64,000 bases of DNA, taken from contig CACHEH010000002.1 of assembly GCA_902578805.1 (NCBI GenBank), positions 124,001-188,000 of the forward strand. Direction: 5' to 3'. A program made the translations under genes and the position numbers. Shown here piece after piece: positions 58,948-64,000 of the stretch. A model generated the notes under the pieces. That model made no database searches. It had not been told where the DNA came from and worked only from the letters and a program-made list of their open reading frames with translations. Position 1 is the first letter of the stretch; each line of letters begins with the position of its first letter. The stretch is from an uncultured SAR116 cluster alpha proteobacterium. GTDB lineage: Bacteria > Pseudomonadota > Alphaproteobacteria > Puniceispirillales > Marisalimonadaceae.

Positions 58948-59388
58948 ATGAATAACTTTATCTTTAAAGAAATAAGTTCAAAAGAAGAAATGAATAAATC
59001 CTATGCCATCAGAACAAGAGTTTTTTGTGAAGAACAAAAAATATCTAAGGAAATAGAGTTTGATAATTTAGATCACCTTTGCGGTCATTTTTTAATTTTT
59101 GATGGTGTAAAAGCAATTGGAACAGCAAGAGTTCGTCAAAAAGAAAAGGGTCTTCTCAAAATTGAAAGGGTAGCGGTTTTAAAAGAATTTAGAAGATTAA
59201 AAGTAGGATCAATTTTAATTAAAAATGTTATCAAACACTATTTGCACTTGGATTATAACAAATCTATCATTTTACATAGCCAGGTTGCAGTTGCAGATTT
59301 TTATAAAACTTTGAGTTTTTCTGCTTATGGAAATGAGTTTTATGAGGATGGGATTCCTCATATAGCAATGAAATATGTTAAAAATTAA
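58948..59388 (+). CDS. GNAT-family N-acetyltransferase
   Basis: This 146-residue protein has the GNAT acetyl-CoA fold: AIRTRVFCEEQKISKEIEFD at the start, IGTARVRQKEKG, then IERVAVLKEFRRLKVGSILI (motif A, pyrophosphate loop), and a C-terminal DFYKTLSFSAYGNEFYEDG with the IPH ending HIAMKY. The pattern is ElaA/YjcF-like. The substrate is unknown. Gfo/Idh follows 21 bp later. Confidence 0.85.
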   Translation: MNNFIFKEISSKEEMNKSYAIRTRVFCEEQKISKEIEFDNLDHLCGHFLIFDGVKAIGTARVRQKEKGLLKIERVAVLKEFRRLKVGSILIKNVIKHYLHLDYNKSIILHSQVAVADFYKTLSFSAYGNEFYEDGIPHIAMKYVKN

Positions 59389-59409: not shown

Positions 59410-60435
59410 ATGAAAAAAAAAATTAAAATAGCAATAGTTGGAACAGGATATTTTAGTAAATTTCATTTTGACGCATGGAAGAGATTAGGTGTAGATGTTA
59501 CTGGAATATGTTCTTTAAATATTGATGAAGCTAAAAAACAATCTTATAGATTTAAAAATTGCAAAACGTATAAAAAATTTTCAAAAATGATAAATGATAT
59601 TGAACCAGATCTTGTAGATATTATTGTTCCCCCGTCAAAACACCTTGAATTAATAAGAATTGCCGCTGAGAAAAAAATAAATATTATATGTCAAAAACCA
59701 TTCACTAATTCTTTGACGCAAGCAAAAAAAGCTGTTGAAATTGCAAAAAAAAATAAAATCATAATTGCTGTTCATGAAAATTTTAGATTTCAACCTTGGT
59801 TTAAGAAAATTTTTAAAATTTTAAAAAGTAATCTTTTAGGTGAATTGTTTCAAGTAAGTTTTAGAATGCGTCCAGGTGATGGGCAAGGTCCAAATGCTTA
59901 TCTCGACAGACAACCTTATTTTCAAAATATGAAAAAATTTTTGATACATGAAACTGCTATTCATTTTATTGATTTGTATAGATATTTTTTTGGTGAAATA
60001 GAAAGTGTCTATGCTTCCTTATCTCAATTAAATGAAGTTATTGCTGGCGAAGATTGCGTTACTGTAATTTTTAAATTTAAAAATGGAATCAAAGGTATTT
60101 TTGACGCAAATAGATTATCTGATCATATTGCTGAGGATAGAAGACTTACAATTGGTGAAATGATTGTTGAAGGATCAGATGGCACAATAAGGTTGAATGG
60201 TGATGGCAAAATATTTTACAGAAAATTTGGAAGTAACAACGAAAAATTAGTTAAATATAAATGGATTAATCGAGGATTTGCAGGAGATAGTGTTTATTTT
60301 TATCAAAAACATGTTTTAAACCATTTCCAGAAAGGACAAGAATTATCTAATAGTGCCGAAAATTATTTGATGAACATATTGGTTGAAAATTGTATCTATA
60401 AGTCAGACAAATTAAAAAAAATGATATATATATAA
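59410..60435 (+). CDS. Gfo/Idh/MocA-family oxidoreductase
   Basis: This 341-residue NAD(P)-dependent dehydrogenase has an N-terminal Rossmann motif IAIVGTGYFSKFHFDAWKR and DIIVPPSKHLELIRIAAE. The family motif in IICQKPFTNSLTQA is the EKP catalytic Lys, here CQKP. A C-terminal alpha/beta domain has FLIHETAIHFIDLYRY. Such enzymes act on sugars, inositols or sugar nucleotides. It lies 15 bp before the DUF4956 gene, so it may belong functionally with that trio. Confidence 0.87.
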   Translation: MKKKIKIAIVGTGYFSKFHFDAWKRLGVDVTGICSLNIDEAKKQSYRFKNCKTYKKFSKMINDIEPDLVDIIVPPSKHLELIRIAAEKKINIICQKPFTNSLTQAKKAVEIAKKNKIIIAVHENFRFQPWFKKIFKILKSNLLGELFQVSFRMRPGDGQGPNAYLDRQPYFQNMKKFLIHETAIHFIDLYRYFFGEIESVYASLSQLNEVIAGEDCVTVIFKFKNGIKGIFDANRLSDHIAEDRRLTIGEMIVEGSDGTIRLNGDGKIFYRKFGSNNEKLVKYKWINRGFAGDSVYFYQKHVLNHFQKGQELSNSAENYLMNILVENCIYKSDKLKKMIYI

Positions 60436-60450
60436 TTTGAGGAGTATTAC

Positions 60451-61104
60451 ATGAGTTATGTTGCTGAACTTAAACAAATTTTATTTTTTGAAAGTATTAT
60501 ATCGCAGATAATAGTATCGTCTTTTCTTGGAATTTTTCTAATTTTTTCTCATGGATATTTTTTTCGATATTTATTTAATAAACATACGATCTTTTTATCG
60601 TTAATGTTACCAGCTACTATTTTAGTTGTTGTTACAGTAATTAAAACAAATATTTTTTTAGCATTGGGTATGGTTGGTGCTTTATCTATAGTAAGGTATA
60701 GAACTCCAGTAAAAAGTCAGTATGAATTAGCAATTTTATTTGCACTTATTGCAATTGGTATAATTGTTGGCGTCAATAGCGTTTACGGAATTTTATTAAC
60801 ATTATTCTTATCATTAATACCGCTTATATACTTTATTTCAATCAATTATTTTCCAATTCTAAAAAAAATTGACTATGACTCGATGTCTGAAGAGAGAATT
60901 TCAGTATCCATGATAACAAAATATGATAATTCTGATGATGCTTTTAATAAACCAATCAAAGGCTTTCTGGTAAGAAAGGATTCAGATATAGAAAATAAAG
61001 AAATATCATTTCTTTTTTCTTTTGAAGACATAAAAAGTGCTCTCGAATTTGAAAAAAATGTTAAAAAAAGAAAAACTTTAAAAAGTATTTCGATTTCTAA
61101 ATGA
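60451..61104 (+). CDS. DUF4956 membrane protein
   Basis: This 217-residue protein has four or so hydrophobic segments (about 14-36, 46-63, 72-95, 99-122). The DUF4956 hallmark ALGMVGALSIVRYRTPVKS lies around 72-90, followed by LAILFALIAIGIIVGVNSVYG. A soluble C-terminal domain of about 90 residues has a beta-alpha-beta look (ISVSMITKYD, ISFLFSFEDIKSALEFEKNV). Its role is unknown. In other bacteria the family is found beside CotH-like and VTC genes. Its stop overlaps the CotH-like gene's ATG (ATGA). Confidence 0.85.
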   Translation: MSYVAELKQILFFESIISQIIVSSFLGIFLIFSHGYFFRYLFNKHTIFLSLMLPATILVVVTVIKTNIFLALGMVGALSIVRYRTPVKSQYELAILFALIAIGIIVGVNSVYGILLTLFLSLIPLIYFISINYFPILKKIDYDSMSEERISVSMITKYDNSDDAFNKPIKGFLVRKDSDIENKEISFLFSFEDIKSALEFEKNVKKRKTLKSISISK

Positions 61105-63581
61105 TTACTTCATTAGATAGATACAAATTTATATTGTATTTCAAATTTATATTTGGAGTAATAATTGGTTTTTATATAAATCCATGTTTTTCAAAGAATA
61201 TAGAGTCACAGTATGATGTTATAATACCAGACGAGATTTTGTTAAATATTCAAGGGAAGTCACTAAAAAAATATGCAACTTTTTTAACAAAAATTAGTGA
61301 AGATAAAACCGGACTTATTCATCCAAATTTTAAAAATTCGTTCAATATTTTTTTAACATCTAAAAATCGATTTAACAAAAATTTTACTATAAAAGCTAGA
61401 GCAAGAATAACTGGTGATTATGATGATCATATAAATATACGAGAAGGTATTTCTTCACTCATGATAAGGTTAAAAAAGAGTAATTTAGGTGGAATAACCA
61501 AATTTAGACTCTTGTTACCAGTTACAAGAAATGGCAATGGTGAAATTTTTTGGTCGGTTCTCATGGAATATTTAGGTTTCCCTGTTCCTTACAGAAAAAT
61601 TGTTCAAGTTTATTTTAATAATGACAAAAAAAAGATACCAATGATTTTTTCTGAAAGAGCAGAAAAAGAATTTTTAGAAAGATTTGGGTTTCGTGAATCC
61701 CCAATTATAGAAGTGGACGAAAGACAAGAATTCGCAAACAGATACTGGAGACTAGATCCAAAAAGATGTTTAGGAGATTACATTGAAAATAAAAAAGCCT
61801 GTAAATTTAATGACGCGCCTGAACATTTGCCTTACAAAATAGAGAACGAAAATTTTTTAAAAAATATTACATCAGTTGAAATATTTTATAGAGGAATAAT
61901 ATCCTTACTAGAAAAAGAAGAAATAAATCAGTTTAATGAATATTTCAGAAATCTTAATATCAAATATGCTAAGCACGGTTTGGGAAGAATAAATGAGAAA
62001 TATATATATAACCCAATATTTCACAACAAAATACCGATTTACGTTGACGGTATGGTAAAAATTCCTGAATGTAATAAAAAGGTTAAGACCAATAAATTAC
62101 CTATTTCTTTTCAAAAAAGTTTTAAAATACTTGAAAAAGTTTATGAACTTAGATCCTTGGGAAAAACTTTTACAAATAATATGAAATGTGTAGTCGTAGA
62201 GGTTTTAAATATGCAACAAAAAATTGAATTCAAACTCAAAAAAATTGACAGTCAACTCAACTATGATCTTATTAATACTAAGTCAAAATCATTCTTTAAA
62301 CCCGTATTGAATCGTCACAACATATCTGCACCAATAATTCATTTATTGAATGATTTCAAGAAAGCTATGTATTGTGACACTATTTATGAAATAAAAGGTA
62401 AAGGTTGTAGTTCGTTGAAATTTAGCAAACTAGTTGATGCTTTGGCTGGTAACCTACCTCCAAAAAATTATAAAGAATATGAATTATTTCCAATAATATC
62501 TATTACAAAACCAATTAAAAAAAATGAGATGATACAGGAAATTTCTCTAAATAAGTCAACTGAAAACATTTATGTAGAAAATAATCAGATAAAGTTTTTT
62601 AAAGTTAAAAGTTTCAATTCTGACATCAATATATATTTGTCGTCTCAGAATTCACAAATAGTATTTTATAATTCGCAAATAAAAAATTCGAAAATAAGTA
62701 TATTTAGACCTTCAAGAGTGTTCAATAATAATAAAATTAGATACAATTATAGGCTTCTTACTGGATGCTTTACCCTAATTTCTTCTATTATAGAAAACAC
62801 ACACTTATATTCAGAAAAAAGTAATTGTGAGGACGCAATTAATTTCATTGGGGTTAATGGAAAAAATATTTCAAGTCGTATTATTGACTCTTCTTACGAT
62901 GCTCTTGATGTGGATTTTTCTAAAATTACTCTTTCAAAAATATTTATAAATAACTCTGGCAATGATTGTATAGATTTTTCTTTTTCAACCTTTAATATTA
63001 ATAACTTAACTGCTATCAATTGTAATGACAAAGCCCTAAGTGTTGGAGAAAAATCTATTGGTATAGTTAAAAAACTAAATCTTAAAAATTCAAAAATTGG
63101 TTTTGCTGTTAAAGATAGTTCAGAACTAAATCTTTTAAGTCCTATAGACAAACAAAACGTAAGCACTTGCGGAATGTTGTATAACAAAAAACAAGAATTT
63201 GAAGGTGGGCTATTAAAATTTTATAAATCAGATAATTGTGATGTTTTGATAGATGATTTTTCATTTTACAATAAAAACGATAATCTAATTTGTAAGTTTG
63301 TATCAAATAACAAATATTTTAAGAGTTGTGTGACCAAATCTAGATTGATATTAAACAAAAAAGAATTTTTTCCCAAAAAAGCCGTTATAAAATTAACTAA
63401 TTTAAACGGAGCTTATAATGATAATGAAAATTCTGTAAATATTAAAAATTGTACACAAAACTCAAATTTATGTAGTTTTAAATTCATCAAAAATTTTAGT
63501 TTTAAAAATGGTTTAAGGATTACGATCTCAGATCCTAAAAATAAAAAAATTATTTTTTTTAATGACTACATTAAACCCTAG
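61101..63581 (+). CDS. Secreted CotH-kinase-like protein with predicted C-terminal beta-helix
   Basis: This 826-residue protein has a signal-like hydrophobic segment (about 9-28). Its N-terminal half resembles CotH: KARARITGDYDDH (about 98-110), SSLMIRLKKS (about 118-127), FRLLLPVTRNGNGEIFW, MEYLGFPVPYRKIVQVYFN and a glutamate-containing IFSERAEKEFLERFG. A region from about 487 to 680 has repeated short strands with Ser, Asn and Asp turns (for example DALDVDFSKITLSKI and GNDCIDFSFSTFNI), matching a right-handed parallel beta-helix. The first part is more divergent than typical CotH, and the kinase residues are not certain. It overlaps DUF4956 by 4 bp, and the VTC gene starts 9 bp later. Confidence 0.72.
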   Translation: MITSLDRYKFILYFKFIFGVIIGFYINPCFSKNIESQYDVIIPDEILLNIQGKSLKKYATFLTKISEDKTGLIHPNFKNSFNIFLTSKNRFNKNFTIKARARITGDYDDHINIREGISSLMIRLKKSNLGGITKFRLLLPVTRNGNGEIFWSVLMEYLGFPVPYRKIVQVYFNNDKKKIPMIFSERAEKEFLERFGFRESPIIEVDERQEFANRYWRLDPKRCLGDYIENKKACKFNDAPEHLPYKIENENFLKNITSVEIFYRGIISLLEKEEINQFNEYFRNLNIKYAKHGLGRINEKYIYNPIFHNKIPIYVDGMVKIPECNKKVKTNKLPISFQKSFKILEKVYELRSLGKTFTNNMKCVVVEVLNMQQKIEFKLKKIDSQLNYDLINTKSKSFFKPVLNRHNISAPIIHLLNDFKKAMYCDTIYEIKGKGCSSLKFSKLVDALAGNLPPKNYKEYELFPIISITKPIKKNEMIQEISLNKSTENIYVENNQIKFFKVKSFNSDINIYLSSQNSQIVFYNSQIKNSKISIFRPSRVFNNNKIRYNYRLLTGCFTLISSIIENTHLYSEKSNCEDAINFIGVNGKNISSRIIDSSYDALDVDFSKITLSKIFINNSGNDCIDFSFSTFNINNLTAINCNDKALSVGEKSIGIVKKLNLKNSKIGFAVKDSSELNLLSPIDKQNVSTCGMLYNKKQEFEGGLLKFYKSDNCDVLIDDFSFYNKNDNLICKFVSNNKYFKSCVTKSRLILNKKEFFPKKAVIKLTNLNGAYNDNENSVNIKNCTQNSNLCSFKFIKNFSFKNGLRITISDPKNKKIIFFNDYIKP

Positions 63582-63590
63582 GATAAATTG

Positions 63591-64000
63591 ATGAAGAGAT
63601 TCGAACAAAAGTATTTATTAGATTCTATCAATATTAATAATGTTTTAAAACAAATTAATGCTAAACCAGTTCACAGTAGCAGATGGATTAATTCAATTTA
63701 TTATGATACCAAAAACTTTATCCTTTATAATGATAGTGTGGAGGGAACCGTTCCGAGAAAAAAAATTAGATTTAGATGGTATGGACAAAATAAAAACATA
63801 AATAAAAATAATCAAAATGGTACCATAGAAGTTAAATCGACTTTTCAATTTCATAGAGATAAATCTAGTATAAAAGTTGTTAATGTTTCACATAAGGAAA
63901 TTAATTTTGAATGCAATAAATTATTAGGTTTAAGCTGTTTTCCGGTGACACAAGTAAGTTTTTATCGAAAATATTATGAGGCCCCAAAAAAAATTAGAGT
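63591..64000 (+). CDS. VTC-domain (polyphosphate-polymerase-like) protein, N-terminal part (cut by right edge)
   Basis: This partial gene encodes 136 residues and runs off the window. It opens RFEQKYLLD (first tunnel strand with acidic and basic residues), then SSRWINSIYYDT and PRKKIRFRWYG (triphosphate-binding basics). EVKST and QVSFYRKYYEAPKKIRV follow. These are the alternating basic/acidic strands of the triphosphate-tunnel metalloenzyme fold found in yeast Vtc4 and bacterial VTC proteins. An AGGAT sequence lies 7 bp before the ATG. The membrane or extra domains, if any, lie outside the window. Confidence 0.82.
   Translation, partial: MKRFEQKYLLDSININNVLKQINAKPVHSSRWINSIYYDTKNFILYNDSVEGTVPRKKIRFRWYGQNKNINKNNQNGTIEVKSTFQFHRDKSSIKVVNVSHKEINFECNKLLGLSCFPVTQVSFYRKYYEAPKKIR

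Follow-up and report, generated by a model that had tools for sequence, protein, structure and literature searches.

A CotH-like domain fused to a right-handed beta-helix, encoded between DUF4956 and VTC-domain genes in an uncultured SAR116 cluster alphaproteobacterium

Introduction

What could be the role of a protein that joins a CotH-like kinase-fold domain to a beta-helix and is encoded between a DUF4956 membrane protein and a VTC-type polyphosphate polymerase? Sets of CotH, DUF4956 and VTC genes recur in bacteria. The question is raised here by a stretch of 64,000 nucleotides (the window; GenBank assembly GCA_902578805.1, contig CACHEH010000002.1, positions 124,001 to 188,000), in which a first-pass annotation made from the sequence alone had described the fusion, proposed that the beta-helix serves as an adhesive or polysaccharide-binding stalk, and found the kinase catalytic residues unclear. 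Here, we have examined the folds, the conserved residues, the neighbouring genes and the distribution of this protein.

Results

The fusion protein is encoded at 61101..63581 on the + strand, from an ATG, with 826 residues exactly as first annotated, and is present in one copy in the window genome. It has no sequence match in Pfam (E<=1), NCBIfam or the PDB. That the two-domain layout is not a product of chance came from the observation that the order of CotH part and beta-helix is kept in 17 complete homologues. In two of these (G321 and G450) the Pfam cut-offs for CotH and Beta_helix are both passed in one chain, and the fused architecture is therefore shown without any model. We regard it as close to certain that a CotH-like kinase-fold domain makes up the first part of the protein and a right-handed beta-helix the second. 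One family member of 1291 aa (L030:3508-7383) carries a long insertion that separates the two parts. Hydropathy reveals an N-terminal hydrophobic segment at residues ~8-28, common to 17/17 aligned fused proteins; because of this segment, the protein is probably exported or membrane-anchored.

The CotH-like domain spans residues ~44-480 (61230..62540, + strand). The CotH profile PF08757 gives no match to the window protein at E<=1, and its cut-off is passed by six homologues, with bit scores of 75.1 (G071), 77.4 (G450), 65.5 (G321), 46.7 (G519), 43.3 (G526) and 26.0 (G575). A profile built from six family members returned only chance matches in the PDB. The AlphaFold2 (AF2) model of the whole protein used five sequences and was poor in the kinase half. 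Since residues 187-476 fell below pLDDT 50, the N-terminal domain was modelled separately from an alignment of three relatives (L006, placed first, L007 and L008) and the N-terminal half of the window protein. The resulting model, which represents the relative L006 rather than the window copy, has a mean pLDDT of 48, with the best parts of the N-lobe at 60-80. In Foldseek its only PDB matches below E 1e-3 were B. cereus CotH structures (5jda, 1.5e-5; 5jd9, 2.9e-5; prob 1.00), with TM-scores of 0.3-0.4 that are low because the C-lobe is poorly modelled. None of the four sequences in the alignment has a Pfam CotH match, so the structural match is independent of how the family is named. From the matches of the homologues, this low-confidence model of a relative and the motif spacing given below, we conclude that the N-terminal half has the CotH fold; the CotH-like blocks that the first-pass annotation had placed near residues 98-200 lie within it, with close boundaries.

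In B. subtilis, CotH has been proven to be a kinase; its catalytic pair is D228/D251, and mutation of D228 inactivates it (PMC7821199). The corresponding motif of B. cereus CotH (5jd9), FDGFVHN...IPWDYD, places its two Asp at a distance of 23 residues, which is also the spacing of D228/D251. In the 17-member alignment, the invariant residues of the CotH half are G105, H110, S119, P140, H292, P312 and D316. By alignment and by the 23-residue spacing in 5jd9, D316 is equivalent to the metal-binding Asp (D251 in B. subtilis) and is kept in 17/17 proteins. The equivalent of the catalytic D228 was not found: the window loop HGLGRIN (292-298) has no acidic residue, and the alignment shows the catalytic Asp to be missing in the window and in 15/17 homologues. 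Only G071 and G321 (loop HTDxFHN) carry an Asp at the position four residues ahead of the conserved Asn. H292 is invariant in the fused family and has no His at the corresponding place in 5jd9, and position 298 is conserved as N or D. The initial doubt about the kinase residues was well placed. Since D316 is kept while the first Asp is missing, we speak of a CotH-fold domain whose catalytic loop has been lost or altered, and not of an established kinase.

It is conceivable that the protein is an active extracytoplasmic kinase, in which the CotH domain would phosphorylate a protein or a sugar, H292 or another residue would replace the catalytic Asp, and the beta-helix would recognise the substrate. 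The retention of D316, H292 and N/D at position 298 across the family, the Asp in the loop of G071 and G321, and the proven activity of the B. subtilis enzyme (PMC7821199) all favour such a kinase. They are set against the HGLGRIN loop, which lacks any acidic residue at the place where loss of D228 abolishes activity in B. subtilis. Moreover, ATP is scarce outside the cytoplasm. Taken together, we place an active kinase on the unlikely side.

The second half forms a right-handed parallel beta-helix (residues 487-697; 62559..63191, + strand). This is the only region that is well predicted in the whole-protein AF2 model, with stacked strands mostly at pLDDT 70-92. Foldseek with the whole, mixed model gave no match below E 1e-3; the proteins it returned were beta-helix proteins, including PL3 pectate lyases and tailspikes, and the best by TM-score were the C. 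bescii PL3 structures 3t9g/4z06 (prob 1.00, TMt 0.63-0.64, rmsd 5.2-5.3, E 0.055-0.078). The Beta_helix profile PF13229 passes its cut-off in this region in G117, G321 and G450. Structure prediction and Foldseek thus found both folds that had been proposed, the CotH fold in the relative's N-domain model and the beta-helix in the window model, the latter close to the boundaries first given (near 487-680).

Is the likeness to PL3 more than a common fold? The PL3 profile PF03211 gives no match at E<=1. Comparing a profile of 14 beta-helix domains with four PL3 sequences, hhalign aligned 89 columns at E 1.8e-4 and a probability of 48%. The score of 32.2 stands against 10.2 for a reversed control and 16.9 for the best of 100 column-shuffled controls. 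PL6, a further family of beta-helix lyases, was tried as a relative and showed no profile similarity (hhalign E 0.42). Because the controls fall far below the score and PL6 reaches only E 0.42, we are moderately sure that the profile likeness to PL3 goes beyond a shared fold. The same alignment, with its profile probability of 48%, puts D643-K644 on the 'DK' motif of PL3, and K644 is invariant in the family. In C. bescii PL3 the Lys of this motif, Lys108, serves as the catalytic base (PMC10992409). K671 lies 27 residues past K644, and the corresponding spacing in PL3, from the Lys to the Arg that binds substrate (R133 in C. bescii), is 25; the hhalign alignment stops before K671.

Conservation bears on what the beta-helix is for. 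Twelve charged residues, D578, D600, D603, D605, D622, D625, D643-K644, E650, K671-D672 and K696 (62832..63188, + strand), are invariant in the 17 aligned proteins and make up a predicted acidic/lysine cleft; the other invariant residues of the beta-helix are G555, S647 and G649. Among the 17 complete fused proteins, invariant positions make up 15/200 gap-free columns in the beta-helix vs 7/231 in the CotH half (Fisher p 0.047, a descriptive value only, as the sequences are related). Mean pairwise identity, taken over 13 of the 17, is 32% in the beta-helix vs 24% in the CotH part, and is higher in the beta-helix in 75/78 pairs. D578, D600, D622 and D643 are spaced by 22, 22 and 21 residues, consistent with an Asp ladder down one face of the beta-helix, one per coil. 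This residue pattern suits a cleft for metal binding or catalysis better than it would a stalk.

The first-pass annotation had suggested a pseudokinase or binding domain whose beta-helix would be a passive stalk, used to adhere or to bind polysaccharide. The missing catalytic Asp in the window and in 15/17 homologues would agree with this, as would the phage tailspike folds found among beta-helix proteins. A stalk, however, is expected to vary in length and in residues, and this beta-helix is short (~210 residues) and better conserved than the kinase half, and its invariant residues are mostly Asp, Glu and Lys, the PL3-like DK motif among them. As the beta-helix is the more conserved half, with an Asp ladder and with Lys644 on the catalytic lysine of PL3, we consider a passive stalk unlikely and depart here from the original proposal. 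A functional cleft is the reading that we hold as fairly probable. In its overall interpretation the annotation was borne out for the CotH half, the beta-helix half and the doubtful kinase residues; its passive stalk was not supported, and it missed the flanking DUF4956 and VTC genes.

The upstream flanking gene (60451..61104, + strand) encodes a DUF4956 membrane protein of 217 aa (PF16316, 45.6 bits) with about four hydrophobic segments by hydropathy, and its stop overlaps the start of the fusion gene by 4 nt. The downstream gene, for a VTC-domain polyphosphate-polymerase-like protein (63588..64000, + strand, continuing past the window to C2:188208), starts 6 nt past the stop of the fusion gene and encodes 206 aa from a TTG, with an alternative ATG start at 63591; the full gene matches PF09359 with 80.1 bits. 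This spacing suggests that the three genes are transcribed as a single unit. The VTC family profile matches yeast Vtc4 (3g3q) at E 8.4e-16, and R61, R63 and E166, invariant in 18 proteins, align with R264/R266/E426 of Vtc4. Mutation of these residues in yeast impairs polyphosphate synthesis, which in yeast VTC is coupled to translocation across the membrane (PMC9911596).

The CotH-beta-helix fusion was found at 18 loci across Pseudomonadota, one of them a fragment (L009). The VTC gene is next to it or one gene away in 18/18 loci, and the DUF4956 gene is visible in 16/18; in the two others (L009 and the G071 locus) the locus or contig ends first. The trio is rare, being present in 8/136 genomes of the window's taxonomic order. 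Beyond this order it is found in G321, which belongs to a different family of the class, and, outside the class, in four genomes of the same phylum (G450, G519, G526 and G575). The beta-helix profile matched 8/398 sampled genomes of the phylum, 3 of the 8 being weak matches. In G038 and G039 (L028, L029) the gene order is DUF4956-VTC-CotH, with VTC in the middle. One genome (G037) carries two divergent trios (L003 and L013), one of them window-clade-like without a match to the CotH HMM and the other nearer to canonical CotH.

Strict co-occurrence with VTC and DUF4956 would also be expected of a non-catalytic periplasmic assembly factor of a VTC/DUF4956 complex, in which the beta-helix is structural and its acidic ladder binds Ca2+. 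Structural metal binding alone, however, does not explain the three invariant lysines of the cleft, and we rate such a scaffold as very unlikely. As to the substrate of a functional cleft, several carrier loci adjoin genes for glycosyltransferases, sulfotransferases or polysaccharide deacetylases, and the trios of L007 and L009 lie inside clusters of the LPS/exopolysaccharide type (glycosyltransferase 61, sulfotransferase, sugar-nucleotide enzymes). No polysaccharide gene stands directly beside the trio in the window genome.

The trio, spanning 60451 to C2:188208, abuts the 3' end of a tRNA-Thr gene, which starts on the opposite strand at the next base after the VTC stop (L010:8208 = C2:188208). 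Past it lie an rRNA-methyltransferase-like gene, tRNA-Tyr and tuf. Four genus mates (G003, G008, G016 and G017) have tRNA-Thr directly after a GNAT gene (58948-59388 in the window), with neither the trio nor the GFO/IDH/MocA oxidoreductase gene (59410-60435) that lies 15 nt upstream of the trio in the window. A fifth (G013) has the oxidoreductase gene between the GNAT gene and tRNA-Thr and lacks the trio. Among the six genomes compared, only that of the window has the trio at tRNA-Thr, which makes it an accessory cassette located at the tRNA-Thr 3' end. The 3' end of a tRNA gene is a usual site of integration. The oxidoreductase gene is itself variably present among genus mates, and may represent cargo separate from the trio at this site.

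No integrase was identified at the window trio, and a tyrosine-recombinase-like neighbour in another locus (L003:66-605) has no Pfam support. A phage or plasmid origin was considered and set aside, as no relatives were found in IMG/VR or in phage or plasmid collections, the last two searched with homologues as queries; tailspikes are nevertheless among the fold matches of the beta-helix. The GC content of the trio is 25% vs a window mean of 29%, and the adjacent genes are AT-rich too, so that GC alone is not decisive for horizontal transfer.

Discussion

The combination of a decayed kinase-like half, a beta-helix, a polyphosphate enzyme and a membrane protein suggests a little-known polymer-modifying machine of the cell surface. 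How its parts could work together may be pictured as follows. By analogy with yeast, the VTC-type protein would make polyphosphate from ATP in the cytoplasm, and DUF4956, as its putative membrane partner, may let polyphosphate or phosphate cross the membrane. The fusion protein, probably anchored in the inner membrane, would act outside on a cell-surface polymer. Its PL3-related beta-helix would bind, and probably modify (cleave, epimerise or edit), an acidic polysaccharide through the Asp/Lys cleft. The CotH-fold domain could bind a phosphate-bearing ligand through D316, and might transfer phosphate by a non-standard mechanism or regulate the beta-helix. That the fusion is an exported protein modifying an envelope or surface polymer and coupled through DUF4956 to cytoplasmic polyphosphate synthesis is, as a whole chain, a tentative proposal to which we give slightly less than an even chance.

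Where an exported kinase-like protein would obtain its phosphate is a further question, and the polyphosphate polymerase encoded in the same operon suggests an answer. One could go further and imagine an extracytoplasmic machine driven by polyphosphate, in which VTC makes the polymer, DUF4956 carries it over, the CotH domain phosphorylates a surface polysaccharide with it in place of ATP, and the PL3-like beta-helix holds that polysaccharide; we regard this extension as decidedly improbable. For the tentative proposal itself, the fusion to a pectate-lyase-like beta-helix points to a polysaccharide substrate, and K644, D643 and D316 are residues on which it can be tested.

Fusion of CotH to a beta-helix was not described in any paper that we found in the open-access literature, a search that leaves most subscription journals outside its scope. 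The three gene families themselves have been seen together. Separate cotH, PPP and DUF4956 genes lie beside pelDEADAFG in streptococci, clostridia and bifidobacteria, with no beta-helix mentioned (PMC7112168); in the present set, CotH carries a fused beta-helix, and pel genes were not seen. We count the placement of that unfused Gram-positive set by pel in favour of the tentative proposal. In C. perfringens, the locus NELoc-2 has CotH, VTC-domain and 'tubulin/FtsZ' genes together (PMC2879425). The genes annotated there as 'tubulin/FtsZ GTPase' (within CP4_0460-CP4_0465) encode membrane-located proteins of 222-226 aa and lie between the VTC and CotH genes (PMC2879425); by position and size, they look like misnamed DUF4956 proteins.

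Compared with the CotH family (PF08757; 5jd9/5jda), the window protein shares the fold of its N-terminal half and the PWD-type metal Asp, kept as D316, and several members of its family pass the Pfam cut-off; it differs in having no Pfam match, no catalytic Asp and a fused beta-helix, and in not being the coat gene of a spore former. With PL3 (PF03211; 3t9g/4z06) it shares a beta-helix of similar size, one Asp per coil and a 'DK' aligned at the position of the catalytic Lys, but it has no PF03211 match, carries an extra acidic ladder (D600/D603/D605/D625/E650) and is part of a fusion. The VTC partner resembles yeast Vtc4 (3g3q) in keeping the tunnel residues and in pairing a soluble domain with a membrane partner. 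Unlike the yeast complex, the bacterial protein has neither an SPX domain nor a fused transmembrane part, its DUF4956 partner is a different membrane protein, and the CotH-beta-helix protein has no counterpart in yeast.
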